Assembly: GCF_000519045.1 (NCBI RefSeq)
Contig: NZ_KI912532.1
Coordinates: 992,001 to 1,056,000 of the forward strand
Reading direction: 5' to 3'
Origin: Dechloromonas agitata is5
GTDB lineage: Bacteria; Pseudomonadota; Gammaproteobacteria; Burkholderiales; Rhodocyclaceae
Length of the DNA: 64,000 bases
In this document: one piece after another, positions 28,687 through 44,475 of the stretch
How the letters are laid out: every line of letters starts with the position of its first letter
Position numbering within the stretch: position 1 is the first letter of the stretch
The notes under the pieces: generated by a model
Database searches by the model: none
What the model was told of the DNA's origin: nothing
Seen by the model: the letters and a program-made list of their open reading frames with translations, nothing else
Made by a program: the position numbers and the translations under genes

Positions 28687-28767
28687 CATTTCATTCCGGA
28701 AAAGGAAAAGGTTAAGTTTACCACGCAGGGTCCGCCCGTTTCCGGACCGGACCCGTCGGTTCAAGCC

Positions 28768-29907
28768 TTACTTGGCCAGCTTCCAGGTGCCGTCCTTGAT
28801 GGTGACCATGACGCGGGCGCGTTGGTCGAGGCCGAGGTGGTCGTTGGCGCTCATGTTGTACACACCGTGGGCGCCGGCCACATTCTTCGTCGCTTCCAGC
28901 GCATCGCGCAGCGCGGCACGGAATTCCTTGCTGCCCGGCTGCGCTTTCTTCAATGCGACAGGCGTAGCATGAGCGAGCAGGGTGCCGGCATCCCAGGCAT
29001 AGCCGCCAAAGGCATTGACACTGCCCTTGCCGTGCACGCCTTCATATTTCTCGACGTATTCCATGGCCGACTTCTTGACCGGATTGTCGGTCGGCAACTG
29101 GGCGGCAACCAGGACCGGGCCGGTGGGCAGCACGGTGTCCTCGCAATCCTTGCCGCAGACGCGCAGGAAGTCGTTGTTGGCGACGCCGTGCGTCTGGTAA
29201 ATGATGCCCTTGTAGCCCTTCTCCTTCAGCGACTTCTGCGGCAGGGCGGCCGGCGTGCCAGCGCCGCCGATCAGGATGGCGTCCGGCTTGGCGGCCATCA
29301 CCTTGAGCACCTGGCCGGTGACCGAGGTATCGACGCGATTGAAGCGCTCGTTGGCGACGACCTTGATCTTGCGCACCTCGGCCAGCTTGGAAAATTCATT
29401 CCACCAGCCTTCGCCATAGGCATCCGAGAAGCCGATATAGGCCACCGTCTTCACGTTGTTGTTGGTCATGTGCTCGACGATGGCGGTCGACATCTGGGCA
29501 TCGTTCTGCGGTGTCTTGAACACCCACTTGCGCTTGGCGTCCATCGGCTCGACGATGCGCGCCGAGGCGGCCATGGCGATCATCGGGGTTTCGGCCTCGG
29601 CCGCAACGTCGACCATGGCCAGCGAATTGGGGGTCGTGGTCGAGCCGATGATCAGGTCGACGTTGCTTTCGCTGATCAGCTTCTTCGCATTCTTGACAGC
29701 AGTGGTCGTGTCCGAGGCGTCGTCGAGCACGATGTAATTCACCTTCTGGCCGGCGATGGTCTTCGGCAGCAGGTCGATGGTGTTCTTTTCCGGAATGCCG
29801 AGCGAGGCGGCCGGGCCGGTGGCGGACAGGGTCACCCCGACGTTGATGTCCGCCATGGCCGTCGTGGCAAGGGTTGCCAGCAAGGCGGCAAGCACGGTCT
29901 TTTTCAT
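28768..29907 (-). CDS. livK: Periplasmic branched-chain amino-acid-binding protein, copy 2
   Basis: 379 residues from ATG 29907 (AGGAG upstream). Signal peptide MKKTVLAALLATLATTAMA, mature DINVGVTLSATGPAASLGIPEKN. It is closely similar to copy 1. A notable difference is a cysteine pair in RVCGKDCED where copy 1 has RVGGKDVEG, which could form a disulfide near the ligand cleft. The tandem arrangement suggests duplication and ligand diversification with one shared set of membrane subunits. Confidence 0.9.
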   Translation of the reverse strand: MKKTVLAALLATLATTAMADINVGVTLSATGPAASLGIPEKNTIDLLPKTIAGQKVNYIVLDDASDTTTAVKNAKKLISESNVDLIIGSTTTPNSLAMVDVAAEAETPMIAMAASARIVEPMDAKRKWVFKTPQNDAQMSTAIVEHMTNNNVKTVAYIGFSDAYGEGWWNEFSKLAEVRKIKVVANERFNRVDTSVTGQVLKVMAAKPDAILIGGAGTPAALPQKSLKEKGYKGIIYQTHGVANNDFLRVCGKDCEDTVLPTGPVLVAAQLPTDNPVKKSAMEYVEKYEGVHGKGSVNAFGGYAWDAGTLLAHATPVALKKAQPGSKEFRAALRDALEATKNVAGAHGVYNMSANDHLGLDQRARVMVTIKDGTWKLAK

Positions 29908-30035
29908 TGTTTTGTCTCCTCTGGGTAAATCAGTTACGCAAAGGTGAAAAGCTAGGGCCAAACGCCCTTTCGTGCAAGCCAGGCGGTCAACCGGGCGTGA
30001 TAAAGTTCATTTCTTTGCTTTCGACAGGTTTTGCC

Positions 30036-31163: not shown

Positions 31164-31204
31164 CGAGTGCGGGCGGTTACAAAACCACCCTTGAAAATCC
31201 CCCA

Positions 31205-31271
31205 CCCCACCCCCATAATCCGGAGCATGGTTGTAATTCCGGCAATCTGGAGGCGTTCTGGACAGGGGTTC
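31205..31271 (+). pseudogene. ssrA: Host ssrA: 5' part of the tmRNA acceptor piece, cut off by the island
   Basis: This stretch matches the acceptor piece of the intact island tmRNA on the other strand: CATAATC, then GTAATTCCGG against GTTATTCCGG, ending CTGGACAGGGGTTC in both. It stops after the 5' T-stem AGGGG and the first three T-loop bases TTC; island sequence follows. In the undisturbed permuted gene it would continue as GATTCCCCT, the acceptor stem and then the coding piece, which are now at 44231-44475. The true 5' end of the piece is not known; 31205 is approximate. Confidence 0.85.
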
Positions 31272-31281
31272 TTATCTAAGG
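31264..31281 (+). repeat. attL junction of the island
   Basis: Host T-stem AGGGG (31264-31268) and TTC are followed by the left element arm TCTTATCTAAGG (31270-31281), which is the exact inverse complement of the right arm at 44219-44230. The shared crossover sequence is GTTC (31268-31271). Confidence 0.88.
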
Positions 31282-31357
31282 GTGTGTTTTGTGCACTTTT
31301 AATCCGACCGAAGGGCGGATAACTACCTAGATTTTGCTAAGTTTTTAAGGCGCTTGC

Positions 31358-31396
31358 CTTGTGCATCTTTATCTGCGTAAGATAACGGTGCACAAG
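31358..31396. promoter_or_regulatory. 39-base inverted repeat upstream of the recombinase operon
   Basis: Two 17-base arms match at 15 positions around a 5-base loop (GCGTA). The outer parts are CTTGTGCA and TGCACAAG; the inner parts are TTATCT and AGATAA. It ends 9 bases before the first recombinase ATG (31406), and its right arm runs into the Shine-Dalgarno AAGGGAG. It could be an operator or an RNA hairpin limiting translation. The inner hexamer AGATAA/TTATCT also occurs in the att arms, so a recombinase or HTH protein may bind both. Confidence 0.75.
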
Positions 31397-31405
31397 GGAG
31401 CGTTT

Positions 31406-32887
31406 ATGTCTTTAAAGAATGTAAAAAGGGAAGAGGTTGTCGTCGTCGGCAAAGTAAGCTGGCGCCTCACGGATTGTGATGGGTTTCCTGTTCCCGTCTT
31501 TGACGAGTTTTGTCGCTCGATAGCAGGCGATGCCTTTGCAACAAGACGGCGTTATGCCATTGTTGTCTCCAGGTTTATAGACTACCTCTACGAGGTTGAA
31601 ATTCTCGGCAAGGGGCCTGTGACGCGAAGTGCAGTCAACCAGGCCATCGACTACTACCTTCTGCTCCTTTCGCATGGAGAGAACATCTCTCTGGGGGCCA
31701 CTGCTATCGAGCGGGATGTAACGGGCGTGGCAGACGAGCTTAGGCAACGAGAAGCCGCACTGAAGCGAGTCGCTAATCGATTGGAGATTCGTGCGCTCCA
31801 GCCCGGCAGTTGGGACAACACCTTGGCTGCCCTTAATCGCTTCTTGCGGTTATGTGCCATGCTGGAAAACGAAGCCCGCGAAATCGCGATGCTGCGCGGT
31901 GGTGTGACCAAAGAGCTGGTCGAGGCCAGCACACTCGATTACACCCCCTTGCTTGAAGCCATTGACGGCGCATCAATGCTGTCTCGAGCCGAGGTTCAAC
32001 ACATCAAGCAATCGTCAATGTTAGGCGGTGTAATTCGTTTTAGAGGAAGTGAATTGTCGCGCCCAAGAGGATTGTCGGGCGGGCGCAAGCGGAAAAAGCA
32101 GGCGGACCTCGAGCTGCTTGAGTTTCCGATGGCGCAGTTTCCTAAGCTTCTGGAGGCGACCTTCTCTTGGCGAGATAAGGCCTTGTGGACGTTGTTGGCC
32201 GCTAGCGGCATACGTCGCTCGGAGGCACTCAATCTCGAGTGGGAGCACATCGATTTTGAGAACGAAACGGTTTACGTGCTCGACCCAGATTACACGCGAT
32301 ATGGCCGAGATTTGCCTGAAGACGAGAGATTCTCAAGGTTCAAGGGCCGCGTAGTTTCTTGGACCTACCTTCGGCAGCCCTATCGTAGTTGGTTCTTCGA
32401 GTTTTTGCTGCAATACCGACAGCAAGAATATGTGTTGCCAGTGGATGGGAATAATTTTGTGTTCCAGTATCTTCGTGGCCAGCATGCGGGAAAGCCGTTG
32501 CGCGAGGCGGCTGATTCAACTCTGAATGAAGCTTTTACGGCGGCAGTTATTCGTGCCGGAATCAAGGGGCCTCCATTTGCCCCTGAACATGTCATGACAG
32601 TGCACTCCCTTCGACATGCCTACGGGATGCATATGCTGAACGATTTCAATGTACCTGGTCAGCTTATGCCTGGCTTGACTGAGGCTGAAGTGCAACTTTT
32701 GATGGGCCATGAAGACATCAATTCAACAAGAAAATACGCTCGTCCAAGACCAGCTAAGCTCATGGAAAAGCTTGTTCGACATGACCAAGCAATGATGGCG
32801 CATCAAGATTCGATGACAGGGTTGCCGCCGGCAATCGCATCCCGGTTGCTTACGGATGGTCAAATCACATCGAGAGCGCGCCGGTGA
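31406..32887 (+). CDS. Tyrosine recombinase 1 of the island (GmtY/TnpA-like)
   Basis: 493 residues. An N-terminal SAM-like core-binding region (~30-170) is followed by a catalytic domain with the full set R270 (SGIRRSEAL), H400 and R403 (VHSLRHAYG), H435 (LLMGHED) and Y444 (STRKYARPR). It is expected to cut and rejoin the att sites at the tmRNA T-loop. ATG 31406 has AAGGGAG upstream; an earlier in-frame GTG (31361) lies within the palindrome. It is first in a five-gene coupled operon; its stop overlaps the next start (GTGA). It resembles the first recombinase of Tn554-type and gamma-mobile-trio systems by layout only. Confidence 0.88.
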   Translation: MSLKNVKREEVVVVGKVSWRLTDCDGFPVPVFDEFCRSIAGDAFATRRRYAIVVSRFIDYLYEVEILGKGPVTRSAVNQAIDYYLLLLSHGENISLGATAIERDVTGVADELRQREAALKRVANRLEIRALQPGSWDNTLAALNRFLRLCAMLENEAREIAMLRGGVTKELVEASTLDYTPLLEAIDGASMLSRAEVQHIKQSSMLGGVIRFRGSELSRPRGLSGGRKRKKQADLELLEFPMAQFPKLLEATFSWRDKALWTLLAASGIRRSEALNLEWEHIDFENETVYVLDPDYTRYGRDLPEDERFSRFKGRVVSWTYLRQPYRSWFFEFLLQYRQQEYVLPVDGNNFVFQYLRGQHAGKPLREAADSTLNEAFTAAVIRAGIKGPPFAPEHVMTVHSLRHAYGMHMLNDFNVPGQLMPGLTEAEVQLLMGHEDINSTRKYARPRPAKLMEKLVRHDQAMMAHQDSMTGLPPAIASRLLTDGQITSRARR

Positions 32888-35800
32888 TAAACGAATCGAG
32901 TGAAATTCAACTAGCTATTAAGCCCGAGAAGTTTTTTCCATTGGCTACGTCTGCATTACGCGCAGCAGCCTCTGAAATGGCCCTCTCGGCATATCCATCA
33001 TGGCCGCAGCCACAACCGCTGTGCTCCTTGGAAAGCCAGTTAATAGATGTACAGGGGTTGGTTTGGGGTAAGGTTAAGAAGGCCATATTTAACCCCTCTG
33101 AGGACTTGTTCGCGCTGGCAGCAACTCTTGGGTTCCCGCATACAACAAATTATCGAGAATGGGCACGGATACGCGAAGCAGTTAATCTTGCGTTACTAGA
33201 TTTGTCCTACAACGCAGCAATATTGCTGCCGGCACATCAAGACTATTCCAAAGAAGAGTTTCCTGAATTCCAGGCAGTTCGAGTGCGGCCCCTAGTCTTG
33301 CAAGCATACAAGGCTCTTCGCGACGACCCAGATTTACCGGAACGAGGCTCCCGGCGAATCGCCTCCTTGGTTTCTGCTACGGATTGGAGGGATGTGAGCG
33401 ATGTTTCCATTGATGACTTGGCGCGAGTAACCCAATCAGTTGTCCGGCATGCCCCGGAACTCGCTGCAACGGGAAGTGCGTTGGCTGTGTTGCCATTCCT
33501 ATATGCTCTTGAGTCATTGGCACCGAACCTTCTGTCCCGGGAGCTACGGCATCAGTTCATGATGTGGCAAGCTTCTTCGCAGTTTTTACTGATGCCGTTT
33601 GATGAATTTAGGCGTGACCCGAAAAACTTTGCCGGGATGCGAGTACATGGACATAAACGGGAGCGAGTTGAGACTCCGGAACTGATTGCGATACGGCGGC
33701 AAAAGAACAATCAGATGGCCCAAAATCGAAGAGCAAACCGGGGTGAGCCGCCGTTCATCTTGAATTTGCGGGAAATCGCAGCTAGCGGAGACTCTGATGC
33801 TCCGGAGCGCTACTTTGAGTCATTGGCGGGGAGTCGTACCACCGATTTTCGTAAAGAAAATTGGCTACAAACTCCAACTACCTACCCAGGCCGTGAGCAC
33901 ATCCGAATTCAAGAAATGGGCCGGTTATGGTTTGCGGCCATGAATGCTTGGATTGCGCACCGAGAAGCCAATTACGAGACCGATAAAGAGGTCCGAATGA
34001 GTCTGCACATGTTGGTTGATTATGTGCTGATGTATTTGCCTTGGTGGAATGAAACTCACATAGAAAATTCCGTTGAGTTGCCATCGGCGCCTAAGCAATT
34101 TGCTCGATACCTTTTCGTGTCGCGAACGGTTTTTCACAGTGAGCAAGGCGGCCTTGATGCGGTGCTGCCCAAAACCCTGGTTGAGTTACTGCATTTACGT
34201 CGGCCACTGCCTGATGGGAAAAACATCATGCTTGGGCATTGGCAGCGCTTCTTTCAGTTTGTTATCACCGCATTTGAGGATAACGACCTGATTGCTGGAA
34301 AGAAGATGGTGAACCCAATTCGCCTCGACTTTGACCGTGTTAAGTCCTCAGCAAGAACCAAAACCAATAAAACTCCTTTTGCAGAGGATGTGTTCCCGCT
34401 CTTGGTGTTCTATTGCCAAGCCCTAGAAGCTTTTGGTGAATACCTGCAACAAAGTGCCTATAGCACCGATAGATTTAAGAATTTGCCCTTTGGGGAGGTG
34501 TATGGCTATAACACTGCTGCCTGGGGGTATGTTCCGTACGTGCGCTACCGAGGGGAGGTGCTACCAGTTCGTTGGATTCCGAGCATTTATCCGGTAGCCA
34601 GACGCTCAATTCGGGCGAATCCAAAAGGGCTTGCCGGTATCTATGTGAAGGGATGCCGGCTGAATTATGGCGAAAATCGGGTGATGGTGCTGAATATGCC
34701 ACATCTCACCATCGTTCGGATGCTTCTCACCATGGTGGAGACAGGGCTCCGCGGACAGAATGTACAGTGGCTAGATAGGTTTGCCTGGGATTCAGTAAGT
34801 AGAGTGGATACGCGAATAGGTCTTTTACATACATGGGAGCCGCCTGAGAGCTTCACCCTTCTTCTGGTCAATACCGACAAATCTCGTGATGAACCTTGGA
34901 CAACGTATGTCTCGTGGCGGGTGCGGCGTAGCCTTCTCGCTGAATCCTATTTTCAGGCAGGAGTTGCCGATTTGGATGTAGATGAGGCGGTTCTGTATGA
35001 AGGTAGGAAAAACTCCAGATTCGACCCGATTGTACCGTTGTTTCGCTCATATAAAGGCATGATGCCATTTGGCGACAACACCTACAGCGCGAGGTGGCTA
35101 CAGTTACTGACAGGGTTTGAGGATTTCTATAACAATGCTTTCCAGGGCGTAGATGGTTACCGGGAGAAGCTTGGTTTGGTTACGATTGAGCCCGCTGTTG
35201 ATGCAAGCGGCTCATTTTTGGATACCACTCGCGACAAGGATGCACTTCAATTCTGTAAGGTAAAGTTTGTCACGGTACATACGCCGCATGCGACGCGGTC
35301 CACCTATGCAACCTTGAAGGACGGAGACCTCGAGGTTTCCGAAATCGCCGAACAGTTAGGGCATACCCAAACGGTAACCACCAACCACTACCAAGTTCCC
35401 TCTAAAGCCAGGATTGTCGGTAAGTTGGAGAGAATTGAGGCTAGGCTGAAAGATGTAGCCTATGACGTCGACGGTAGTGGTGCGGGGTACATCGATAACG
35501 AAGGCGCGGATAGCTCTGTACGCACGGCATTTTCAATTGACCGTGATAAGGCGATTCAGGAATTCGGCTTTATGCCCGGGGTCGCACTGTGGTCCTTAAA
35601 TGACCTAACCTCCGATGAAGAAAGCAGCATTGAATTGCTGCGCCGGAGTCCATCCAGTGTTATTCGTTGGCACCCGACCCATGTCTGCCCGGTGGGCAAT
35701 CAGTGTCCCTCGGAAATAATAGTTAGGACAGGGGGATTGCAACGCTGTGGCCTGTGCCCCCTCGCGGTTAAGTGTATCGACCATTTGCCGGCCATCGCAG

Positions 35801-36372
35801 CCAAGAAAAATGAGTTAAAGGAGCGTATTCGGATGACTGCTCTTCAAATCCAAGCCTTGGCAACCCGAAAAGGTGCGACGCAAAGTCAGAAAGATGCATT
35901 GCACCGCACCCAAAGTCTGGATGCAAAAGAGCTTATAGGCTGGCAACTATCTTCCCAGATTTTGCATGACAAGATGCAAAGTATGGGGCCCCATCATGAG
36001 GGCTATCATGCAGACCAACCAGAAATGGTGAAACGCCACCTTCAACTTATAACTCGAGACTCGACTACGGCAGAGTTCTTCCTTCAGCGGATTGCGGACT
36101 CGAACGCCTACCCATCGCTGGAATCTCCCGAGGTCAGAGCTCGCGCAACCAAGTATGTGCAAATCATCATGGCCCGCGCCGGCCGCGAAGATGATGCCGC
36201 GCTTCTTGACCTCGAGCCCTACAGCGAATTGGCAGCTTTTGCGAGCCTCATCAAGCCAATGGCCGATGCCAAGGGGGTCGGAATTCCTGCTGTTGCCGAA
36301 ATGCTGTCAGGCGGCAAACGAAACGAACTTGGGGTCGTATCCGGACCTAGTCTGCTCGGGAGAATCCGTTAA
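32884..36372 (+). CDS. Tyrosine recombinase 2, large, with C-terminal Cys-rich module (GmtZ/TnpB-like)
   Basis: 1162 residues from GTG 32884. The first ~550 residues are unassigned. A catalytic domain carries R623 (ETGLRGQNVQWL), H802 and R805 (PHATRSTYA), H827 (EQLGHTQ) and Y836 (NHYQVPS), so all five canonical residues are present. A C-terminal extension has C935-x5-C941, C955-xx-C958, C964 and H967, a possible zinc or Fe-S site, followed by charged helices. It starts within the stop of recombinase 1 and ends TAATG into the next gene. It is much longer than ordinary integrases (~400). It probably acts as the partner recombinase for the other half-site. Confidence 0.85.
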   Translation: MINESSEIQLAIKPEKFFPLATSALRAAASEMALSAYPSWPQPQPLCSLESQLIDVQGLVWGKVKKAIFNPSEDLFALAATLGFPHTTNYREWARIREAVNLALLDLSYNAAILLPAHQDYSKEEFPEFQAVRVRPLVLQAYKALRDDPDLPERGSRRIASLVSATDWRDVSDVSIDDLARVTQSVVRHAPELAATGSALAVLPFLYALESLAPNLLSRELRHQFMMWQASSQFLLMPFDEFRRDPKNFAGMRVHGHKRERVETPELIAIRRQKNNQMAQNRRANRGEPPFILNLREIAASGDSDAPERYFESLAGSRTTDFRKENWLQTPTTYPGREHIRIQEMGRLWFAAMNAWIAHREANYETDKEVRMSLHMLVDYVLMYLPWWNETHIENSVELPSAPKQFARYLFVSRTVFHSEQGGLDAVLPKTLVELLHLRRPLPDGKNIMLGHWQRFFQFVITAFEDNDLIAGKKMVNPIRLDFDRVKSSARTKTNKTPFAEDVFPLLVFYCQALEAFGEYLQQSAYSTDRFKNLPFGEVYGYNTAAWGYVPYVRYRGEVLPVRWIPSIYPVARRSIRANPKGLAGIYVKGCRLNYGENRVMVLNMPHLTIVRMLLTMVETGLRGQNVQWLDRFAWDSVSRVDTRIGLLHTWEPPESFTLLLVNTDKSRDEPWTTYVSWRVRRSLLAESYFQAGVADLDVDEAVLYEGRKNSRFDPIVPLFRSYKGMMPFGDNTYSARWLQLLTGFEDFYNNAFQGVDGYREKLGLVTIEPAVDASGSFLDTTRDKDALQFCKVKFVTVHTPHATRSTYATLKDGDLEVSEIAEQLGHTQTVTTNHYQVPSKARIVGKLERIEARLKDVAYDVDGSGAGYIDNEGADSSVRTAFSIDRDKAIQEFGFMPGVALWSLNDLTSDEESSIELLRRSPSSVIRWHPTHVCPVGNQCPSEIIVRTGGLQRCGLCPLAVKCIDHLPAIAAKKNELKERIRMTALQIQALATRKGATQSQKDALHRTQSLDAKELIGWQLSSQILHDKMQSMGPHHEGYHADQPEMVKRHLQLITRDSTTAEFFLQRIADSNAYPSLESPEVRARATKYVQIIMARAGREDDAALLDLEPYSELAAFASLIKPMADAKGVGIPAVAEMLSGGKRNELGVVSGPSLLGRIR

Positions 36373-37013
36373 TGGGGGCCCCGAAAGGAACTGATAATTT
36401 CTCCGGGTATCGAGAAGCCCAGCTAAGTAGCAATTTGCGACTCATTGAAGATGCTCTGAGTATTCTACGGAAGCGAAAGCTGCGATTTGAGGGGTTGCAG
36501 CCTCTGGCTGCCGAGGTGGCCGAGCGGACAGGTGTCCATCGAACTACTTTGTGTCGCAATTCCGCTTACAAGCGCCTTATGCTGAACCATCTAGCCTCTC
36601 AGCCCGGCGCAAGCGCCTTGGTTGGTGATGATGACGCGACGCCTGAGTTGCTGAAGGCAAAGCTCTTCGATGCACGACTAGAAGCAAAAACTCTCAGGGG
36701 CCGCGTTGCCGCCTTGGAAAATAGGCTATCGGCATCAACGGTAGCGTTGACTGAAGAAGAGCATGCGGTTTCTTCAGGGGGGGCAAGCCCGCATGTCGAC
36801 TTCAGTAATACAGTCATGGCTCTCAAGCTGATACTGGAAAGAATCAATGCTGAATTTGAGGTTATCCAGGTCGATTTTGAAAAAGAGGAAATACGTGACC
36901 TAGCGGCTCCAGTTGGTCGCCAAGTCATCGTGAGTGGGCAACGTGCTCGGGCATTTTTGCAGGCATATCGCACCCTTCTTGAGCAGGAAGGAAAGCTTGG
37001 GAGGAAGGCATGA
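36372..37013 (+). CDS. HTH/coiled-coil accessory protein of the island (TnpC/GmtX-like)
   Basis: 213 residues. A probable helix-turn-helix lies at ~42-75 (LQPLAAEVAERTGVHRTTLCRNSAYKRLML), followed by a coiled coil at ~92-120 (LLKAKLFDARLEAKTLRGRVAALENRL) and an alpha/beta C-terminus. Small HTH-coiled-coil proteins (for example Tn554 TnpC) accompany paired tyrosine recombinases and influence orientation or efficiency. It overlaps the preceding stop by one base and the next start by four. The specific function is inferred from context. Confidence 0.7.
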   Translation: MGAPKGTDNFSGYREAQLSSNLRLIEDALSILRKRKLRFEGLQPLAAEVAERTGVHRTTLCRNSAYKRLMLNHLASQPGASALVGDDDATPELLKAKLFDARLEAKTLRGRVAALENRLSASTVALTEEEHAVSSGGASPHVDFSNTVMALKLILERINAEFEVIQVDFEKEEIRDLAAPVGRQVIVSGQRARAFLQAYRTLLEQEGKLGRKA

Positions 37014-37456
37014 AAAGCGGGAAGGTGGTTGGTGCCGAGTACGTACAGACGTTTCGGACCTATCTGGAATCTGTTGATGTGCTGCCTCGCAACGAAGATG
37101 GGGCGCTCAGCATCAGTGCCATTGCAGAGGCCTCTGGAATACCACGACAGTCGTTTTACAAGAATCCTCAACTGAAAGCGCTTCTGGCTGACGTCAAGGT
37201 TGACTCGCCAGTTAAGGCATTTCAAGAGGGCGCTACATCGGATAGTCGCCGTGTGCGTAGCGAGGGTGGGCTTGACGCAAAAGCGAAGGTTCTGGAAAGA
37301 CGCGTTCATCAACTAGAACAGCAAAATGCTGCCTTGGTGGCCGAAAATGCGGAGCTACGCCGTCAGCTGAAAGCGCTGAGGCTACAAACTGCTCGTGAGG
37401 ACATGATGATTGAAACGGGGCGGCGAATTCCAGCGCCTCCGGAGCGCCATGCCTGA
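37010..37456 (+). CDS. Second small HTH/coiled-coil protein of the island
   Basis: 148 residues. The HTH-like stretch at ~34-58 (ISAIAEASGIPRQSFYKNPQLKALL) parallels the HTH of the preceding protein (GVHRTTLCRNSAYKRLML), so the two are probably diverged copies of one module. A leucine-zipper-like coiled coil lies at ~92-128 (VLERRVHQLEQQNAALVAENAELRRQLKAL). The ATGA overlap with the previous gene shows coupling. It may be an accessory DNA-binding factor or a regulator of the 31358 palindrome. Confidence 0.7.
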   Translation: MKSGKVVGAEYVQTFRTYLESVDVLPRNEDGALSISAIAEASGIPRQSFYKNPQLKALLADVKVDSPVKAFQEGATSDSRRVRSEGGLDAKAKVLERRVHQLEQQNAALVAENAELRRQLKALRLQTAREDMMIETGRRIPAPPERHA

Positions 37457-39548
37457 AACAATCACCATCACGGTCGGGGTCCTCACGCACCTTGCCAGCA
37501 ATGGTTCGGCAATCTTCTCGGGGCTCAATGCCGAAGGCACCCGTATACGAGTTGTAGCGGGACCGCGCTGCCTGCCTCGCCACCCCGCGATTGGCGAGGC
37601 TTGGGAGGTTACGGGTGACTTCCGCGAGCACCCGAAATATGGACGGCAGCTGTACGCCAAACAGTGCAGCTACGCTGTCCCTAAAGGGCGCCTCGTCATC
37701 AATTACCTGGCCAGCCATCCAGATTTCGCTGGCATTGGTGAAGGCAAGGCAGCTGCCCTCTATGCCACTTTCGGTGATGGGCTGGTCTCACTCCTGGATG
37801 CCGGCGATGCGGAAGCGTTGTGGAGCGTTCTGACGACTTCAATGGCCGACCGGCTCGTCGAAGTCTGGGCAGAAAAGCGTGCCGAGGGCGCAGTAGTCGC
37901 CTTCCTGGATAAGTATGGCTTTGATGTCCGGATTGCCAACAAACTACGCCGGGTCTGGGGTGGCGATGCTATCGAGATGCTCGAGCTGAATCCCTACTAC
38001 ATGCTGGCTTTTGCTAGCTGGAAGGTGACGGATTCTGCGGCGGGGAAGCTCGGTGTCGTCAAGGGTGATGCGCGCCGCCTCGTTGGTGCGGTGGAAGCTG
38101 CGCTGTATGAACGTCTACAGGACGCCCACACGCTGACGCCGGCGGGGAGGCTTGTGGAGCGGGTTGCCAAACTTCTCTCCCTGGATGCCCACCATGCCAG
38201 GTCGGCCATCGACCTGGCATGGCAAGAAGGCGCCATCGTTGGAAATGCAGTTGAGGGTTATCAGCCCCTGGGTGCTGCTGCCCTGGAATCTGGTATCGCA
38301 GAGCGTATCCGGGCGATGGTGGCTGGGGAGGCACCAAGGCAATCGATGCTGTTTAACGCCGAGGTGGGCATGGATTGGCTGGCAGGCGCCATTGCCGAAA
38401 ATGAAGCTGCTCAAGGCTTTGAATTGAATGCCCAGCAGCGCGAGGCGGTACTGCTTGCGGCTACGGAGCCGTTCTCGGTGCTGACCGGTGGTGCAGGTGT
38501 GGGAAAAACCACCGTGTTGCGTATCGTCATCGACATCGCCAAGCGGCTCAATCTGAAGGTGCTGCAAATGGCCTTGGCCGGGCGCGCAGCTAAGCGGATG
38601 AGCGAGGCAACTGACCACGAGGCGATGACCATTGCGCGCTTCCTGCATCAAGTCAAGGAAGGGATGCTTGAAGTCACGCCGGATACGCTGGTCATCGTCG
38701 ATGAGGCCTCGATGCTCGATTTGCCGACGGCTTTCCGGCTCCTGCGATTTTTACCCGAAGGCGCGCGACTACTGCTGGTCGGCGACCCGGCACAACTGCC
38801 ACCCATCGGCTTCGGCCTGGTATTCCACCGCTTGGTTCAAAGCCCCTTGGTTCCGCTGGTGGAATTGACGGAGGTGCATCGCCAGGCTGCTGCAACCGGC
38901 ATCCCGGGAATTGCGGCGAGCATTCGCGACCACGAGGTGCCTGACCTTGACGCCTACCGTGGCCGGGCGCCTGGGGTCAGCTTCATCGAGTGCGTGCCGG
39001 AGGAAGTGCAGGGCCATTTGCAGCGGTTAGCCGCCGATTGGTCTGGCGACGACTTCCAGATGCTTGGTGCCATCAAAGATGGTCCCTGCGGCATCGAAGC
39101 CATCAATTTCCAGTTTCACGAGGCATGCAGCACCGAATGCCTGACTGGGTTTCAGTTTGGTGTCGGCGAGCCGGTTATCCATCTAGTCAATGACTATGAC
39201 CGAGGGCTGATGAATGGAACACTGGGCCGTATTACCGCGGTGACCAACGAGTGCACAGTAGGGCTGCATATTGATTTCGAGGGTGTGACGCACTTCATTC
39301 CTGTTGCAGAAGTGGCCGACCGACTTACGCTGGCACATGCGATTTCGGTGCATAAAGCACAGGGTAGCCAGTTCCGGCGCGTAGCCGCCGTGGTGTCGAA
39401 GTCCCGCATTCTAGACCATTCGTTGATTTACACGGGGCTCACTCGTGGCATTGAGCAAGTTGTGTTTCTGGGAAGCAAGCCAACTTTTGAGGAAGCCGTT
39501 CGCAAGCCGGCTTTAGCCCACCAAAGAGAAGTGGCATTCGTCCTCTAA
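37449..39548 (+). CDS. RecD2-like superfamily 1 DNA helicase
   Basis: 699 residues from ATG 37449 (GGAG just upstream; it overlaps the previous gene by 8 bases). The N-terminal region (~1-300) includes a helix-hairpin-helix-like stretch (SHPDFAGIGEGKAAALYATFG) as in RecD2. The helicase core has Walker A GGAGVGKT (347-354), Walker B VIVDEAS (D418, E419), VGDPAQLPP and the C-terminal motif LAHAISVHKAQGSQF. RecD2 helicases unwind DNA 5' to 3'. Being part of the recombinase operon suggests a role in processing or mobilising the island. RecB/RecC partners are absent. Confidence 0.88.
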   Translation: MPETITITVGVLTHLASNGSAIFSGLNAEGTRIRVVAGPRCLPRHPAIGEAWEVTGDFREHPKYGRQLYAKQCSYAVPKGRLVINYLASHPDFAGIGEGKAAALYATFGDGLVSLLDAGDAEALWSVLTTSMADRLVEVWAEKRAEGAVVAFLDKYGFDVRIANKLRRVWGGDAIEMLELNPYYMLAFASWKVTDSAAGKLGVVKGDARRLVGAVEAALYERLQDAHTLTPAGRLVERVAKLLSLDAHHARSAIDLAWQEGAIVGNAVEGYQPLGAAALESGIAERIRAMVAGEAPRQSMLFNAEVGMDWLAGAIAENEAAQGFELNAQQREAVLLAATEPFSVLTGGAGVGKTTVLRIVIDIAKRLNLKVLQMALAGRAAKRMSEATDHEAMTIARFLHQVKEGMLEVTPDTLVIVDEASMLDLPTAFRLLRFLPEGARLLLVGDPAQLPPIGFGLVFHRLVQSPLVPLVELTEVHRQAAATGIPGIAASIRDHEVPDLDAYRGRAPGVSFIECVPEEVQGHLQRLAADWSGDDFQMLGAIKDGPCGIEAINFQFHEACSTECLTGFQFGVGEPVIHLVNDYDRGLMNGTLGRITAVTNECTVGLHIDFEGVTHFIPVAEVADRLTLAHAISVHKAQGSQFRRVAAVVSKSRILDHSLIYTGLTRGIEQVVFLGSKPTFEEAVRKPALAHQREVAFVL

Positions 39549-40117
39549 TGTGTATTCTCGGTAAAACTACCAGCTAAAACTCAATGGTTTGCTCATTCGA
39601 AATTTTGATAAATCGGGTTTCCAATAGAGAGCAACCTGGGCTTGGCTCGGCGTAGCCGAACGAGCCAGGAGGCAAGCGAGCGCAGCGGAGTGCGGCAGGT
39701 GAGGGCCATTATGCAAACAGCTTTCTCATTACGGTGGCGCCGACCAGATAATTGCATTGTCGTGAACTAAGTATTGAGGCAGCAACCGGCCATTACCTGC
39801 CGTTGCCTGTTACGTTTGAATTGGTCGCGTCGAGCGGAGCCGAACGGCCGGTTTTCGGCGAGCAATTTGAAGGTAGGAATTTCGCAAACCGGCCATGAGC
39901 CGTCGCTCGCGGTTTTTGCCCATAGCAGCCATTCAAGGCGCGTTGGTTTATGCTAACGTATTGAAGCGCCGCTTTTCTCGATTTTTTAGCAGCCATAATC
40001 TTCAAGCAATATCTTTGGAAAGCCTTTAACTGCAATGCTTTACAGGGATATGCCATTACACAATTAGGGAGCAGCCGCCGGAGTTATGCAGCAAAACTGT
40101 CTCCGGTTAACAAAGTT
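39549..40117. other. Non-coding island stretch before the cassettes
   Basis: No convincing gene in ~570 bases. Seen: an imperfect hairpin with GGCTCG/CGAGCC arms (about 39637-39660), several CCGGCC/GGCCGG repeats (39789-39890), and a CCGGAG/CTCCGG pair near 40075-40104 just before the first cassette gene. This could be a decayed cassette or an attI-like region, but no integron integrase is present. Confidence 0.4.
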
Positions 40118-40396
40118 ATGCATAAAGGTCTGCGCGTACTTCTGGCATCAACTGCTGCTTTTGTCAGCTTGCCTGCTTTTGCATGGCTTGCGGCTGAGCT
40201 TGCTGCCTACTACGAAATGCTCTCGACGGGCATGAACTCTCGGGCCGAGTTGGGTGACGACCTGGGGTTTGGCATTCTCCTATTCATGGTCGTGCCGCCA
40301 TTTGCATTGGCCGGTGCAGTGTTTGTCTGGTGGCTTGTTTGGTCTCGCACTGGGCGCTCGAAAACCACCCTCTCGAATGGGGACACCAATGCATAA
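40118..40396 (+). CDS. Cassette gene 1: small membrane protein
   Basis: 92 residues, MHKGLRVLLASTAAFVSLPAFAW. There are two hydrophobic segments (N-terminal ~6-30 and ILLFMVVPPFALAGAVFVWWLVW at ~52-75) and a short polar tail. No family recognised. Its stop lies inside the R'' end of the attC-like site that follows, which is the layout of an integron cassette gene. Cassettes typically lack their own promoters, and none is obvious. Confidence 0.55.
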   Translation: MHKGLRVLLASTAAFVSLPAFAWLAAELAAYYEMLSTGMNSRAELGDDLGFGILLFMVVPPFALAGAVFVWWLVWSRTGRSKTTLSNGDTNA

Positions 40397-40477
40397 CCCG
40401 GCGGTCGCCCCCGTTCCCTTCGGTCACTGGACGCTGCGCGATAAAACCGCGCAGCGCCGGTCACCTCTACGTTAGCG
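40391..40477 (+). repeat. attC-like recombination site 1
   Basis: 87 bases from GCATAAC to GTTAGCG. Outer arms CCCGGCG/CGCCGG enclose a central GCTGCGCG/CGCGCAGC hairpin. It closely matches the second site at 40840, which has the same length and the same internal order. The R' end departs from GTTRRRY at one or two positions, so activity could be reduced. Confidence 0.75.
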
Positions 40478-40484
40478 CCGCACC

Positions 40485-40823
40485 GTGGACATAGTGAATG
40501 CATCGGTAAAAATAATATGGGCTGCTTGTGCCCTAGTGGTGGGGTTAGTTCTTTTTCTATTGGTTGTGCCCAAGCAACTGGATGCTTCAGCAAAACAAAA
40601 CGCCGAAACTTTCTGCAACTCAATTATCGTGGGCGAATCGATTCAATCTCTCTCAGTCAAGGCAGAGACCGCGAAGGCCAGTCTCGCGTCCTGGGAGCCT
40701 AAGAATGGTTTGGTGCATCACCAGGCTTGGTTTTCCGGGTTTCTGGCGAATGCTTTCTCCTGCGAGATATATTCCCAGAACGGAAAAGTTATTTCAAATC
40801 ACACCGATGAACACACATGGTAA
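40485..40823 (+). CDS. Cassette gene 2: single-pass membrane protein
   Basis: 112 residues starting GTG-GAC directly after attC site 1. One N-terminal membrane helix (VKIIWAACALVVGLVLFLLVVP) is followed by a soluble periplasmic or cytoplasmic domain with two cysteines (AETFCNSIIVG, NAFSCEIYS). No recognised family. The length, and the position between two attC-like sites, fit a gene cassette. Confidence 0.6.
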   Translation: MDIVNASVKIIWAACALVVGLVLFLLVVPKQLDASAKQNAETFCNSIIVGESIQSLSVKAETAKASLASWEPKNGLVHHQAWFSGFLANAFSCEIYSQNGKVISNHTDEHTW

Positions 40824-40839
40824 CAACCAATCTACACAG

Positions 40840-40926
40840 CGCTAACCCGGCGCTCAACCCCGTTCGCTTCGCTCTCTGGACGCTGCGCGATAAAGCCGCG
40901 CAGCGCCGGCCACCTCTACGTTAGGT
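40840..40926 (+). repeat. attC-like recombination site 2
   Basis: 87 bases from CGCTAAC to GTTAGGT. The R' end GTTAGGT fits the GTTRRRY rule. Arms CCCGGCG/CGCCGG and the central GCTGCGCG/CGCGCAGC hairpin are as in site 1. Together the two sites bracket cassette 2 precisely. Confidence 0.8.
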
Positions 40927-40931
40927 GCTTC

Positions 40932-41249
40932 GTGGACTATACACACCAGCCGGTTATCGCACTCCTTCGTGGGCCACTTGTTTACACACCACAGGGCTTG
41001 GTCGTTCTGGCATCAGCTGTCGTCTATTTCGCCATCGCCGCGGCATATCTCGTGTTTGGCATTACGCCACCACTCGGTAAAGACATTGAGGTCGTAGTTG
41101 CACTTTGTCTCTTTTGGCCGTTCATTGTTTTTTTGTTTTTCATCAAGAACGGCATGCCATCCTTCGCGCCGTCGCGTCGCGGGGCATTATTTCTGTCAGT
41201 AGTCGCCGGCATGCCTGTGCTTCACGTTTTGTGGCGCACCTATACCTAA
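40932..41249 (+). CDS. Cassette gene 3: small polytopic membrane protein
   Basis: 105 residues, again GTG-GAC just after an attC-like end. Three hydrophobic segments are seen (LVVLASAVVYFAIAAAYLVFG, VVALCLFWPFIVFLFFI, ALFLSVVAGMPVLHVLW). No recognised family. Downstream the third attC appears degenerate (about 41325-41390, ending in TCACCTTCACGTTC instead of TCACCTCTACGTTAG), so this may be the last cassette. Confidence 0.55.
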   Translation: MDYTHQPVIALLRGPLVYTPQGLVVLASAVVYFAIAAAYLVFGITPPLGKDIEVVVALCLFWPFIVFLFFIKNGMPSFAPSRRGALFLSVVAGMPVLHVLWRTYT

Positions 41250-41669
41250 TTTCCTGCTCGCTATCTCAATCGGCAGTCACCCCGGACTTCCACGCCAGTC
41301 CGCACCAAACACTACGGTCGATGCGCGGCTTTGCCGCTGGGACACCGTGCCGGCGGGGCCGGCCCGGCGCCCCTCACCTTCACGTTCCTGAGTGTCCGCT
41401 TTTTCAACCGGCCTATGTCCGTTTTGGGTCGTCTGCACTCAGTGACCAAGGGCTACTACCGGGAAGCGAAACTCCAACGGCAGCTTTACGGCGACGAACC
41501 TGAAGAGATGTAGTTCGCGTCCCGACCCACAGCCGACGCTCGGTGAGCAAACATCCGTGATGTCAGGTAACGGTGCGGAGCCGTCACCCGCCAATGCCAA
41601 TAGCGCGCAACAATAGCTTTCAGAAAGCCCCGCATAGTTCCTGCGAGGCTTTCTGTACCTGCTCAAGTG
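41250..41669. other. Intergenic stretch with decayed attC and a hairpin
   Basis: Contains the degenerate attC-like remnant mentioned for cassette 3 and a possible 32-residue frame (ATG 41415, ending GDEPEEM) that I do not trust as a gene. A 9-bp stem (CAGAAAGCC/GGCTTTCTG, 41621-41655) lies just past the stop of the acuI-like gene and may end its transcript. Confidence 0.4.
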
Positions 41670-42653
41670 TTAGCGATTCACATCGACAACAACACGCCCT
41701 TTAACTTCACCATTCAGCAATTTGGTGGCAAATGGCATGACCTCGCTAAGACCGATTTCGCGGCTGATAACGCCCAGCTTCTCGATGTCCAGGTCACAGC
41801 CCAAACGTCGCCATGCCTCAAGCCGGTCAGGTGTCGGACACATGACGCTGTCGATACCAACCAAGGTCACGCCACGTAGAATGAAAGGTGCGACTGACGA
41901 CGGAAAATCCATGCCGCCGGCCAGCCCGCAGGCGGTTACGACACCACGGTATTTGGTCGTGGCGCAGACATTGGCCAAGGTATGGCTACCCACGACATCG
42001 ACCGCACCGGCCCATCGCTCTTTACCCAAGGGCTTGCCAGGCGACGAGAATTGCGCACGGTCGAGCACTTCTTTGGCGCCCAAGCCTTTCAGATAGTCTG
42101 CTTCCGCTGGCCGACCGCTCACAGCAACCACCGTGTAGCCAAGTTTGGTCAGCACGGCCGTGGCGACACTGCCGACGCCACCTGCCGCACCGGTCACCAG
42201 AATTTCACCATCTGACGGCTTTACACCGTGGCGTTCGAGCGCCAGCACACAGAGCATGGCGGTATAGCCCGCCGTACCGATAGACATGGCCTGCTGCGGC
42301 GTAAAACTGGCCGGCAGGGGTACCAGCCAATTTCCGTTTAACCGCGCTTTTTGCGCCAAGCCACCCCAATGACCTTCGCCGACGCCCCAGCCATTGAGCA
42401 GCACCGCATCACCGGGCTTGTATCCGTGATGCGAAGACGCTTCAACGGTACCGACCAGGTCAATGCCGGGGACCATCGGGAATTTGCGGACAACGGGGCC
42501 TTTGCCGGTAATTGCCAGGCCATCCTTGTAATTCAGTGTCGAATGGCTGACGCGAACGGTCACGTCGCCATCAGGCAATTGTGATTCGTCGATGTCTTTC
42601 AGTCCGGCGCGGTAACCGGATTCGTCCTTCTCAATCAAAATCCCTTTGAACAT
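41670..42653 (-). CDS. acuI: AcuI/YhdH-family NADPH-dependent acryloyl-CoA/quinone reductase
   Basis: 327-residue medium-chain zinc-independent oxidoreductase. Start [22 protein letters not shown], then [32 protein letters not shown] and the nucleotide-binding [14 protein letters not shown]. This sub-family reduces acryloyl-CoA to propionyl-CoA and so detoxifies acrylate; other members act on small electrophilic enones or quinones. Length (~325-330) is complete. It is divergently controlled by no neighbour but sits directly downstream of a TetR gene on the same strand, with an operator between them. Confidence 0.85.
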
Positions 42654-42672
42654 ATGAGTCTCCTTGGTAATT

Positions 42673-42687
42673 TAGACCGAACGTCTA
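42673..42687. promoter_or_regulatory. TetR-type operator upstream of acuI
   Basis: The palindrome TAGAC-CGAAC-GTCTA lies 19 bases upstream of the acuI-like start. It nearly matches the box in front of the tetR gene, so one regulator probably controls both. Confidence 0.75.
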
Positions 42688-42703
42688 GTAAAAGGCAAAA
42701 AAA

Positions 42704-43342
42704 TTAGCCGGGGGGTAACCCAGCAAAAAAACCTCGTGCAAAAACTTCAAGCGGCTCTGCGCTTTGTTCCAACTTCGCCCTCAGCACCGCACCCTCCCAG
42801 CCAATCCAGAAAAAAGCAGCCAGTTGTTCACAATCGGCTTGCCGTGAAAGCTCGCCTGCTTCTTGAGCTGCCATCAGGCAACGCGCAAATCTTGCCTGCC
42901 AATCGTCGAAAACCGCTTGCAACTGCCTGCGGAAGCTTTCTGGAAGGGAGCCCATTTCCTGCCCAAGATTTCCGATGAGGCAGCCCCGCCGAAAATCGTG
43001 GCGTGCCATGCCAGCTTGGGCGCCGGTGACGAAAGCGCGTAAACGCGTGAGCGGAGAGAGTGTTTTGTCGCTGAGATAACGGTCAATTTTGCGAGCATAA
43101 AAATGAGCGTATTGCGCAATTAACGCTGCACCGAAGGCCTCTTTGCTTTCAAAGTAATGATAGAAAGACCCTTTCGGAACGCTGACACGGTGCAAGATTT
43201 CGTCAATGCCAGTGGCCGAGAAACCTTTCTCGGTCAGAACTTCCAAGCCGGCGCGCAGCAGCAAATCACGTGTTTCAACCAAAGACTCTCTGGGTTTGGG
43301 GGGGCGGCCACGCCTACGGGGAGTTGAAAGCTGAGTTTCCAT
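42704..43342 (-). CDS. TetR-family repressor of the acuI-like gene
   Basis: 212 residues. A basic lead (RRRGRPPKP) is followed by the TetR HTH at ~28-75 (LLLRAGLEVLTEKGFSATGIDEILHRVSVPKGSFYHYFESKEAF) and a helical ligand domain with cysteine in RRGCLIGNLGQEMG, a feature of NemR/AcuR-like sensors of electrophiles. It lies just upstream of acuI on the same strand; matching operators occur before both genes. This indicates autoregulated derepression by a reactive substrate (inference). Confidence 0.85.
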   Translation of the reverse strand: METQLSTPRRRGRPPKPRESLVETRDLLLRAGLEVLTEKGFSATGIDEILHRVSVPKGSFYHYFESKEAFGAALIAQYAHFYARKIDRYLSDKTLSPLTRLRAFVTGAQAGMARHDFRRGCLIGNLGQEMGSLPESFRRQLQAVFDDWQARFARCLMAAQEAGELSRQADCEQLAAFFWIGWEGAVLRAKLEQSAEPLEVFARGFFAGLPPG

Positions 43343-43353
43343 GCTTTTTATAT

Positions 43354-43368
43354 TAGACCGACCGTCTC
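43354..43368. promoter_or_regulatory. TetR-type operator upstream of tetR
   Basis: TAGAC-CGACC-GTCTC, 12 bases upstream of the tetR start. It shares TAGACCGA-CGTCT with the acuI operator at 42673. Position over the promoter suggests autorepression. Confidence 0.7.
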
Positions 43369-43741
43369 TTTAAATCAAGTGGCTTTTAAGTAGACCAGTC
43401 CTTGGCGTTGGAGCCGTTAGCTCACTTTGCCGCAGAAACCGAACTCTATTCCCCGATTGACGAGGCTTTCCGAGCGTTTAAGTAAGTCATCAGGCAGGTT
43501 TTGGAACGGAGACGACACATGAATGTCCGCTGTGGCGAAAAGATGGGCGGCGGGTTGTGGCCGGTAGGGTGAAGCTGCCAGCGGCCGCTTTGTAGCCCCC
43601 CAGTTCAAAGAGACTGCCTTTGGCCGAATGGCTGCTTAGGAGAAAGCCGACAGGCCGAAATGGGTCGGTGGCTGTCCTTTAATACGTCAGCCAGGTGGCA
43701 TCAGGCAACCGTTAAATACGCTCGTGGAAGCGCATAACTTA
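43369..43741. other. Non-coding stretch between tetR and the island tmRNA
   Basis: About 370 bases with no gene I can support. A 63-residue frame on the minus strand (43417-43608) has no recognisable family or ribosome-binding site. The stretch nearest 43741 is the 3' flank of the island tmRNA and contains an imperfect ATGCGC/GCGTAT hairpin but no T-run terminator. Confidence 0.4.
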
Positions 43742-44085
43742 GACGTGACGACGGGGACCGAAGTCCCCGCCGGCTATCTTTGGTAACAAGGCTCTAGCAG
43801 CCCCGGCTAGCCGTTTTTAGGCGGCAATAGCGAATTGCTCATCGTTGGCAATTATGGATTTGCGCGGATTACGTCCGTCGCCTCTCGAGCTGCCTGCTTC
43901 TCTTCTTCCACCCTGTCGAAACCAGTACACCCCCACCTAAGCCAACAGCTTGGTATGTTCCCAGCCTGTACCCCTATGGGCTTAGGTGGAGGTGAGGGGA
44001 ATCGAACCCCTGTCCAGAGCGTTTCCGAGTCACCGGAATAACAGCCATAACCTGATTATGGGGTCGGTCACCCCAAAAAACAACT
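43742..44085 (-). ncRNA. ssrA: Intact two-piece (permuted) tmRNA carried by the island
   Basis: Acceptor piece upstream (to 43985): GTGACTCGG..GCTCTGGAC, a perfect T-arm AGGGG-TTCGATT-CCCCT (44011-43995), acceptor strand CACCTCC, discriminator A and CC. The terminal A of CCA is not encoded. After ~50 bases comes the coding piece: GGGGGTG (from 43934, pairing with CACCTCC and including the G-U identity pair), TACTGG..TTCGAC, and the tag frame at 43849-43817 reading ANDEQFAIAA then stop. A GGGGAC-TTCG-GTCCCC hairpin follows near the end. The acceptor 5' end and coding 3' end are approximate. It rescues stalled ribosomes, and appears to replace the split host copy. Confidence 0.9.
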
Positions 44086-44218
44086 GCTCACCACTGTCAG
44101 GTTGTCACTAAGTGTAACAACGACTGCTTTTTGCAATAGTGCACGGTGGTGCATGATTTAGTATAGACTATTCTGCGGGGCATTGTACTAACACACACAG
44201 TCAAAATTCAAACTTTTT

Positions 44219-44243
44219 CCTTAGATAAGAGTTCGATTCCCCT
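44219..44243 (+). repeat. attR junction of the island
   Basis: The right element arm CCTTAGATAAGA (44219-44230) is followed by GTTC (44231-44234) and the rest of the host T-arm (GATTCCCCT). The A-A-G-A bases now stand where the 5' T-stem should be, giving two A-C mismatches in the would-be stem. Confidence 0.88.
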
Positions 44244-44475
44244 CACCTCCACCCAAGGGCATTCGGCTGAGTGTGTTTGGTTGGGGGTGTACTGGCTTCG
44301 ACAGGGCGGGCAAAGGTGCGCAGGCAACCCGAGAGGTGACGGACGTAATCCGCACAAATCCATAATTGCCAATGATGAGCAATTCGCTATCGCCGCCTAA
44401 AAACGGCTAGCTGGGGCCGCTGAAGCCTTATTACCCAAGACAGCCGGCGGGGACTTCGGTCCCCGTCGTCACGTC
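44231..44475 (+). pseudogene. ssrA: Host ssrA: acceptor 3' part and complete coding piece, right of the island
   Basis: Retains TTCGATTCCCCT, acceptor strand CACCTCC (44244-44250), discriminator A, then after ~28 bases the coding piece from GGGGGTG (44283). The tag frame 44368-44400 reads ANDEQFAIAA and stop, identical in protein to the island copy but with two synonymous third-base changes. By eye the ~193-base coding pieces differ at about 22 positions. The 5' part of the acceptor piece is 13 kb away at 31205-31271, so a normal acceptor RNA cannot form. The coding piece itself looks intact and might still be used if transcribed from the island side. Confidence 0.85.

Follow-up and report, generated by a model that had tools for sequence, protein, structure and literature searches.

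A chromosomal island that splits the two-piece tmRNA gene of Dechloromonas agitata and carries a complete ssrA of its own

Transfer-messenger RNA (tmRNA), the product of ssrA, is the RNA that frees stuck ribosomes. Here, a 64,000-nucleotide stretch of the Dechloromonas agitata is5 genome (NZ_KI912532.1, positions 992,001 to 1,056,000; hereafter the window) was analysed, in which an island of 12,960 bp interrupts the resident two-piece (permuted) ssrA, a plus-strand gene, at GTTC of the T-loop. The island splits the resident gene, leaves it unrepaired and brings a complete ssrA that is predicted to provide the cell's only tmRNA, a reading to which we assign a probability of about 0.85. It is also likely, with somewhat less confidence, that one branch of two-recombinase islands makes itself hard to lose by disrupting an indispensable tRNA-like gene at the T-loop and installing a complete copy of its own, with tmRNA and tRNA-Ser(UGA) as targets in two hosts each.

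The split resident gene and the island-borne ssrA

The resident acceptor piece starts at 31229 (GGTTGTAATTCC...), and its left half (31229-31271) ends as ...ACAGGGGTTC at 31271, cut in the T-loop after GTTC; in congeners this 5' part is continuous with the sequence that here lies from 44231 onward. The right half restarts at 44231 as GTTCGATTCCCCTCACCTCCACC / GTTCGATTCC and extends to about 44471. This plus-strand remnant (44231-44471) holds the 3' half of the T-arm, the acceptor end, the intervening segment and the coding piece, without the 5' part. Both junctions were read, and neither rebuilds the resident ssrA. When the halves are rejoined by script, one continuous permuted ssrA results that aligns over its full length with intact relatives. 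An 11-nt inverted repeat bounds the element on the plus strand: CTTATCTAAGG at 31271-31281 (attL), next to the shared core GTTC at 31268-31271, and CCTTAGATAAG at 44219-44229 (attR), followed by an A and the core GTTC at 44231-44234.

Empty sites in relatives show how the locus looks without the island. A genus search covered 76 genomes, 59 of which, including the window genome and a second host (G468), scored above the RF01850 cut-off. Among the other 57, 49 were examined, and because all 49 have an unsplit acceptor-piece T-arm, chance is excluded as an explanation. In BLAST comparisons with congeners, window positions 31271 and 44231 meet with a four-base overlap, GTTC. Draft contig ends in G003, G449, G450 and G459 were considered as extra island cases and rejected, the sequence there stopping within conserved ssrA with no island junction.

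RF01850 exceeds its cut-off at two places in the window, 43746-44134 on the minus strand (249 bits) and 44155-44471 on the plus strand (224.4 bits); the latter match is composed of the resident coding half plus unrelated island sequence. ARAGORN reports only the island copy in the window, with the tag ANDEQFAIAA. An intact ssrA elsewhere in the single-contig, 3,627,226-bp genome was considered and rejected, as no third RF01850 match above the cut-off was found and the only others are weak (21.6 and 19.9 bits). A one-piece tmRNA gene would probably have shown in the same scan, since RF01850 gives 36-45 bits on those of seven congeners; RF00023 itself was not run genome-wide. The genome has one smpB.

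Standard one-piece tmRNA genes (RF00023) were observed in seven genomes of the genus (G030, G032, G020, G011, G439, G465 and G461; loci L078-L084). In G020, the standard tmRNA gene is followed some 1.8 kb downstream by an int-alpA RNA match (L080, 8953-9020), which hints at another island there.

The island's permuted ssrA occupies 43746-44046 on the minus strand. Its acceptor piece (44046-43985) is followed by the intervening segment, the coding piece from 43934 and the tag at 43849-43817; T-arm, acceptor and tag are intact, and the RF01850 score stands well above the gathering score of 84. The tags of the island and resident genes are identical. A promoter-like sequence (TTGTTT, 17-bp spacer, CATAAT; 44055-44083, minus strand) lies 8 nt ahead of the island acceptor piece and would serve as its promoter. 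The resident gene has a comparable, consensus-like candidate (TTGAAA, 17-bp spacer, CATAAT; 31191-31219, plus strand) 9 nt ahead of its acceptor piece. This resident sequence now points at the first recombinase gene across attL (window 31191-31405) and may drive the recombinase operon.

To place the island copy among its relatives, 47 ssrA sequences were aligned, comprising two island copies, two rejoined residents and 43 loci (G027, G253 and G453 appear twice each). Base pairing was assessed on 42 rows, with five short rows of 229-254 nt left out (L028, L055, L056, L057 and L058). The island ssrA retains 79 of the 81 pairs in the consensus structure predicted by RNAalifold for these rows. Between it and the rejoined resident there are 45 substitutions, and 19 pairs are changed; 17 of these are still standard, four through changes on both sides. 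With a predicted consensus and two broken pairs, this supports, without proving, function of the island ssrA. In a FastTree tree of all 47 sequences (branch support was not examined), L058 (G446) falls together with the island copies, which stand well apart from both residents; the best identity of the island ssrA to any compared ssrA of the genus is 86.6%. The island ssrA is thus foreign to both hosts.

These results agree with the initial annotation, made without database searches, on several points. It had described an island splitting a two-piece tmRNA gene whose halves, at 31271 and 44231, restore a perfect T-arm when rejoined, as the alignment with intact relatives and the 49 unsplit congeners bear out. 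It had placed a complete permuted ssrA with the tag ANDEQFAIAA inside the island, which ARAGORN and the 249-bit RF01850 match confirm. The sister genomes that it proposed to compare have the uninterrupted T-arm (49/49). Neither of the outcomes that it named as refuting was observed, and the uninterrupted ssrA elsewhere that would have spoken against it is absent from the RF01850 matches above the cut-off. The 11-nt terminal inverted repeat is an addition to that description.

Recurrence in a second host and at tRNA-Ser(UGA)

Across the island, the gene order is recombinase 1, recombinase 2, a 213-aa protein, a 148-aa protein, a RecD2-like helicase, cargo, ssrA and an AT-rich right end. A second copy was found on L077 (NZ_CAMFKO010000007.1), from an uncultured Dechloromonas metagenome-assembled genome, as one further locus in the genome-contig search; L077 is evidently the same contig as G468:C7. 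It has the same element ends at the same ssrA base and the same inverted, complete ssrA. The two copies agree at 1480/1482 positions in recombinase 1, 3405/3489 in recombinase 2, 639/642 in the 213-aa gene, 439/447 in the 148-aa gene, 318/319 in the island ssrA (43742-44060) and 126/131 in the right end. Outside the element, the flanks are 81-91% identical (left 3289/3631 and, nearer, 3201/3735; right 1454/1800), with 379/522 in the lipoprotein gene by attL and 222/241 in the resident remnant. The two cargos are unrelated from about 39793 to about 43646, where L077 has a 201-aa open reading frame (ORF). The near-identity of recombinase 1 and ssrA, set against the more divergent remnant and the different cargo, argues that ssrA travels with the element. 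By these identities, the hosts clearly differ more from each other than most of the element does between them, and ssrA, unlike the cargo, behaves as a part of the element. The rejoined resident ssrA of G468 is identical to the intact ssrA of G445 over the 279 compared positions, so this insertion looks recent.

Similar junctions occur at another tRNA-like gene. When the 395 genomes of the family were scanned for YTTAGATAAGRGTTCGA with at most one mismatch, six genomes matched, and the motif is exact in three: the window genome, G734 and G559. The one-mismatch matches in G743, G563 and G704 have no adjoining RNA gene and were rejected; a reversed-pattern control gave single matches in four genomes. 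The attR motif YTTAGATAAGAGTTCGA recurs exactly at tRNA-Ser(UGA) of both G734 and G559. In G734, the 5' part of tRNA-Ser(UGA) on contig C31 is cut at GTTC and continues as TTATCTAAACC (attL), and on contig C22 the 3' part, GTTCGAATCTCACCGCTTCC at 5128, is preceded by TTTAGATAAGA (attR). A complete tRNA-Ser(UGA) with a 217-nt intron in the anticodon loop lies at C22 4740-5046 (L128). The recombinases of this element are 40% (recombinase 1) and 33% (recombinase 2) identical to those of the window.

G559 has both junctions on one 693-kb contig, with the 5' half of tRNA-Ser(UGA) starting at 38541 and cut at GTTC, and the 3' half starting at 41140. The element has decayed to a 2,535-bp relic with an 85-residue recombinase 1 match and no recombinase 2 match, and a complete tRNA-Ser(UGA) stands at 40755-41058 (L224, 2356-2659) with a 214-nt intron in its anticodon loop. 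The group I model RF00028 scores this intron at 39.7 bits (E=5.9e-8), short of its gathering score of 50. At tRNA-Ser, the left end of the element reads TTATCTAAACC or TTATCTTAACC, and the spares lie about 80 bp from attR in both genomes. The exons of the two spare copies are identical (90 nt) and their group I-like introns agree at 197/213 positions; the rejoined host genes differ. No second tRNA-Ser(UGA) was found in either genome when anticodons were read for three long non-leucine candidates per genome, and the remaining serine tRNAs identified read GCT, GGA and CGA. That the spare tRNA has outlasted the recombinases in G559 suggests that it is needed. The base before GTTC at attR is A in the window and G in L077; it is G in the host ssrA and A in the split tRNA-Ser genes. 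The A in the window might be a relic of a former tRNA-Ser-type site.

On comparison of these junctions, then, the target is split and unrestored, the spare is intact and travelling, and the same layout recurs at tRNA-Ser(UGA). The initial annotation's reading, loss of the target together with provision of a whole second ssrA close to the right end, is strengthened by G468/L077, G734 and G559; L077 is a further island of the kind that it suggested looking for, with the same ends and an internal ssrA.

Other islands in relatives behave in more familiar ways. At the same ssrA, islands of about 9 kb in G253 (with a 602-aa integrase) and 7 kb in G453 (L085, L086) have pushed aside the 5' part of the resident gene and brought in a replacement for it together with a new promoter-like sequence, leaving an intact ssrA. 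The weak second RF01850 matches in these two genomes were considered as spare tmRNAs and rejected, being the displaced 5' fragments of ordinary islands. Both modes, repair of a part and replacement of the whole gene, are thus found among these bacteria, and the permuted layout alone does not demand a whole spare gene; whole-gene replacement is a property of this element.

In a family-wide comparison, recombinase 2 alignments matched 6/395 genomes: the window's own, G034, G397, G647, G729 and G734. G468 is missing from that family listing, and related elements are also present in G647 and G258. The elements of G034, G397 and G729, whose recombinase 1 is 30-32% identical to that of the window, begin beside an intact tRNA-Gly(CCC) (L075, L074, L071, L119). 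In G034 the element extends over two contigs, and a tRNA-Gly-like 3' fragment, GGTTCGATTCCCATCGCCCGCTCC, follows CCTAATATAAA at its far end. One reading of this fragment is ordinary 3' repair; it pairs imperfectly with the left-end 5' half. The right ends of the tRNA-Gly-side elements were not found in G397 and G729. Leftover recombinase and tRNA-like fragments were observed upstream of the present element in G729.

A proposed course of events and its alternatives

As attL, attR and the empty sites suggest, a circular element would enter the T-loop of a tRNA-like gene by recombination at its own TTAGATAAG/CTTATCTAA junction, probably joining at GGTT(C). Arrival would inactivate the target, and the element's own gene would be expressed from its own promoter from that moment, so that recipients would keep trans-translation. 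Precise excision would restore the resident gene; once the recombinases had decayed, as in G559, the spare would be permanent. Expression and function of the spare, catalysis and excision are all steps that we infer from sequence.

Several observations weigh against this account. ssrA is not essential in all bacteria, hence selection on the spare is unproven. Only two ssrA hosts are known here, and between them recD2 agrees at 2025/2139 positions, little above the best flank (90.6%). The island ssrA has two broken consensus pairs, scores below most ssrA matches of the genus and itself holds an intact T-loop target. It is also inverted relative to the operon, and the tRNA-Ser spares are not. 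The genomes of G734 and G559 are 91% and 84% complete, so another tRNA-Ser(UGA) could be missing from them, and the ends of the G734 element lie on different contigs. Finally, elements with more distant recombinases stand beside intact tRNA-Gly, and whole-gene replacement is therefore not universal in the wider family.

Such observations leave some room for other explanations. The tRNA-Gly-side elements, together with the G253 and G453 islands that restore the 5' end of ssrA, could indicate that a restoring island lost its restoring end and that a foreign ssrA was then recruited as a repair in one lineage. This is unlikely, in that the same 11-nt left end occurs in both ssrA hosts, and TTATCTAAACC or TTATCTTAACC at tRNA-Ser; because left ends are shared, the missing restoring segment is a shared trait of the element branch and not damage in one host. 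As an account of how the branch originated, this alternative may hold. Alternatively, the ssrA could be chance cargo and the loss of the resident gene coincidental, given that cargo has been swapped between copies, that the spare is in inverted orientation and that, at no more than 86.6% identity to the compared genus genes, it is foreign to both hosts. Yet the cargo changed while ssrA was held at 318/319, the spare is of the same type as the disrupted gene in both known hosts, and the relatives that target tRNA-Ser carry tRNA-Ser. That target and cargo should match by chance in two separate gene families is improbable, and this alternative is accordingly rated quite unlikely.

The remaining two explanations have very little probability. 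Permuted tmRNA is naturally processed into two pieces, and the resident promoter-like sequence and coding piece are both still there, so the split halves might yield a functional RNA with the spare as a minor or specialised tmRNA. However, the acceptor piece is cut within its T-loop, 13 kb now separate the two halves, and with two identical tags a special role is not apparent. An assembly artefact merging two strains is equally far-fetched: head-to-head related copies can mislead assemblers and several congeneric draft contigs end inside ssrA, but the genome is a single contig and the same junctions occur in the separate assembly NZ_CAMFKO010000007.1.

Gene content, known systems and implications

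Recombinase 1 (31406-32887, plus strand; 493 aa, or 508 aa from an alternative start at 31361) is a tyrosine recombinase (PF00589, E=3.5e-18) that matches the GmtY model weakly, with 35.5 bits against a cut-off of 340. Recombinase 2 (32884-36372, plus strand; 1162 aa) is a predicted large tyrosine recombinase with weak integrase-family matches (PF00589 at residues 798-839, E=0.059; phrog_1 at 797-863, E=0.00046). In an 11-row alignment, R623, K666, H802, R805 and Y836 are invariant and H827 nearly so; we assign these residues as the putative catalytic set. A protein search listed 18 relatives of recombinase 2, 48-99% identical, among 7,995 candidates scored, and the protein was not found in the viral contigs or plasmids searched.

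The 213-aa accessory protein (36372-37013, plus strand) has no convincing family match, and scans of Pfam, NCBIfam and PHROGs found no recombinase match in it. The 148-aa protein (37010-37456, plus strand) is DUF6262/VPA1267-like (PF19776, E=1.6e-8, above cut-off; NF040697, 36.9 bits against a cut-off of 90). The 712-aa RecD2-like helicase (37410-39548, plus strand; start codon uncertain) scores 398 bits with TIGR01448 against a cut-off of 500, and is about 50% conserved in the related elements of G034 and G729. Two blocks of cargo, both absent from the L077 copy, follow. The first comprises three small ORFs with attC-like repeats between them (40118-41249, plus strand); these repeats resemble, at about 90% identity, the attC region of blaOXA-2 cassettes known from plasmid records, and no integron integrase was called above cut-off among the island ORFs scanned. 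The second comprises acuI (acrylyl-CoA reductase) and the TetR regulator acuR (41670-43342, minus strand), both above cut-off (NF051456, 575.8 bits; NF051457, 325.1 bits). The AT-rich right end extends from 44086 to 44218; G+C is 0.539 in the island, 0.626 and 0.638 in the flanks and 0.407 at 44086-44230. No phage structural family was found for the 10 island ORFs scanned against Pfam, NCBIfam and PHROGs (E<=0.001).

Two observations concern neighbouring genes. Two adjacent, related minus-strand ORFs at window 27547-29961 resemble branched-chain amino-acid binding proteins by eye and are perhaps a tandem duplication; their cross-matches in L077 are about 80% identical. In L077, a sensor-kinase-like ORF (18359-20641, read from its translation) lies between the split ssrA and a tonB-like gene and is absent from the window.

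The closest functional parallel is tRNA-dependent lysogeny in actinobacteriophages, demonstrated by experiment (Guerrero-Bustamante and Hatfull 2024, PMC10865867). As described in the accessible text, that system shares with the island a tyrosine recombinase, a short core in a tRNA gene, a target that is not reconstructed and a whole compensating gene of the same type, which here would function likewise. Related phages of one group may restore or replace the target, and tmRNA is named there as an attB (attB-9). The element thus has an attB in a tRNA-like gene, a short core, no reconstruction and a whole same-type gene, but here the carrier is an island of a betaproteobacterium with two recombinases and no recognised phage structural genes, and the target is tmRNA or, in relatives, a tRNA-Ser with an intron-bearing spare. 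Without a phage structural match, and with recombinase 2 not found in the viral contigs searched, it lacks the temperate-phage feature. It works like tRNA-dependent lysogeny and is not filed as a member. A survey of Sinorhizobium prophages, in the text available, reports no tRNA-dependent lysogeny (PMC12429752).

The machinery recalls other islands. Like GInts (ginABCD; Bardaji et al. 2017), as portrayed in the consulted portions of PMC5385486, the island has a multi-recombinase operon at one end, a short AT-rich opposite end, variable cargo that differs between related copies, and short repeats. The base pattern at attR fits a strand exchange of a few nucleotides as in GInts. GInts, however, have three tyrosine recombinases plus GinD, and only two recombinases are recognisable here. 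GInts are described as inserting into genes for proteins (an ABC transporter, ssb, ribonucleotide reductase) or between genes, and that text mentions no tRNA, tmRNA or ssrA. With Gamma-mobile-trio (GMT) islands (PMC12039261 in part, and NCBIfam names) the island shares weak GmtY and VPA1267-family matches; scans of its proteins found no match to GmtX or GmtZ, and GmtY falls far below its cut-off. The machine resembles GInt and GMT islands and lacks tested defining features of each.

Ordinary tRNA-gene and tmRNA islands likewise cross over in an RNA gene as attB, with ssrA a favoured target, according to the portions consulted of PMC4383910 and PMC3146451. In ordinary islands the target is regenerated at one junction; those described with Islander bring a fragment that rebuilds it (PMC4383910), and the ssrA islands of Dehalococcoides, inserted in the T-loop, lie between ssrA and a 20-bp repeat of the ssrA 3' end (PMC3146451). 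In the present island, both junctions are left unrepaired and a complete gene is provided. Phage Melnitz is also a mobile element with a whole two-piece tmRNA gene, but its authors report no integrase, and the text available describes no disrupted target (PMC9004378). In the PMC literature searched, as far as its text was accessible and including the 2025 tmRNA database paper (PMC11915505), no island that brings a complete replacement tmRNA is described. The initial annotation's remark that it knew of no described case for permuted tmRNA therefore stands for tmRNA and for islands within these searches, while the principle is paralleled by tRNA-dependent lysogeny (PMC10865867).

These findings bear on how such elements are detected and on how RNA genes evolve. 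Finders that seek a target gene plus a displaced fragment, as Islander does in its published outline (PMC4383910), may miss such elements or misplace their ends. The island also offers a testable route through which tmRNA and intron-bearing tRNA genes of foreign origin could reach fixation in chromosomes. It is, in addition, a natural setting in which retention of the spare may serve as a measure of the need for tmRNA.

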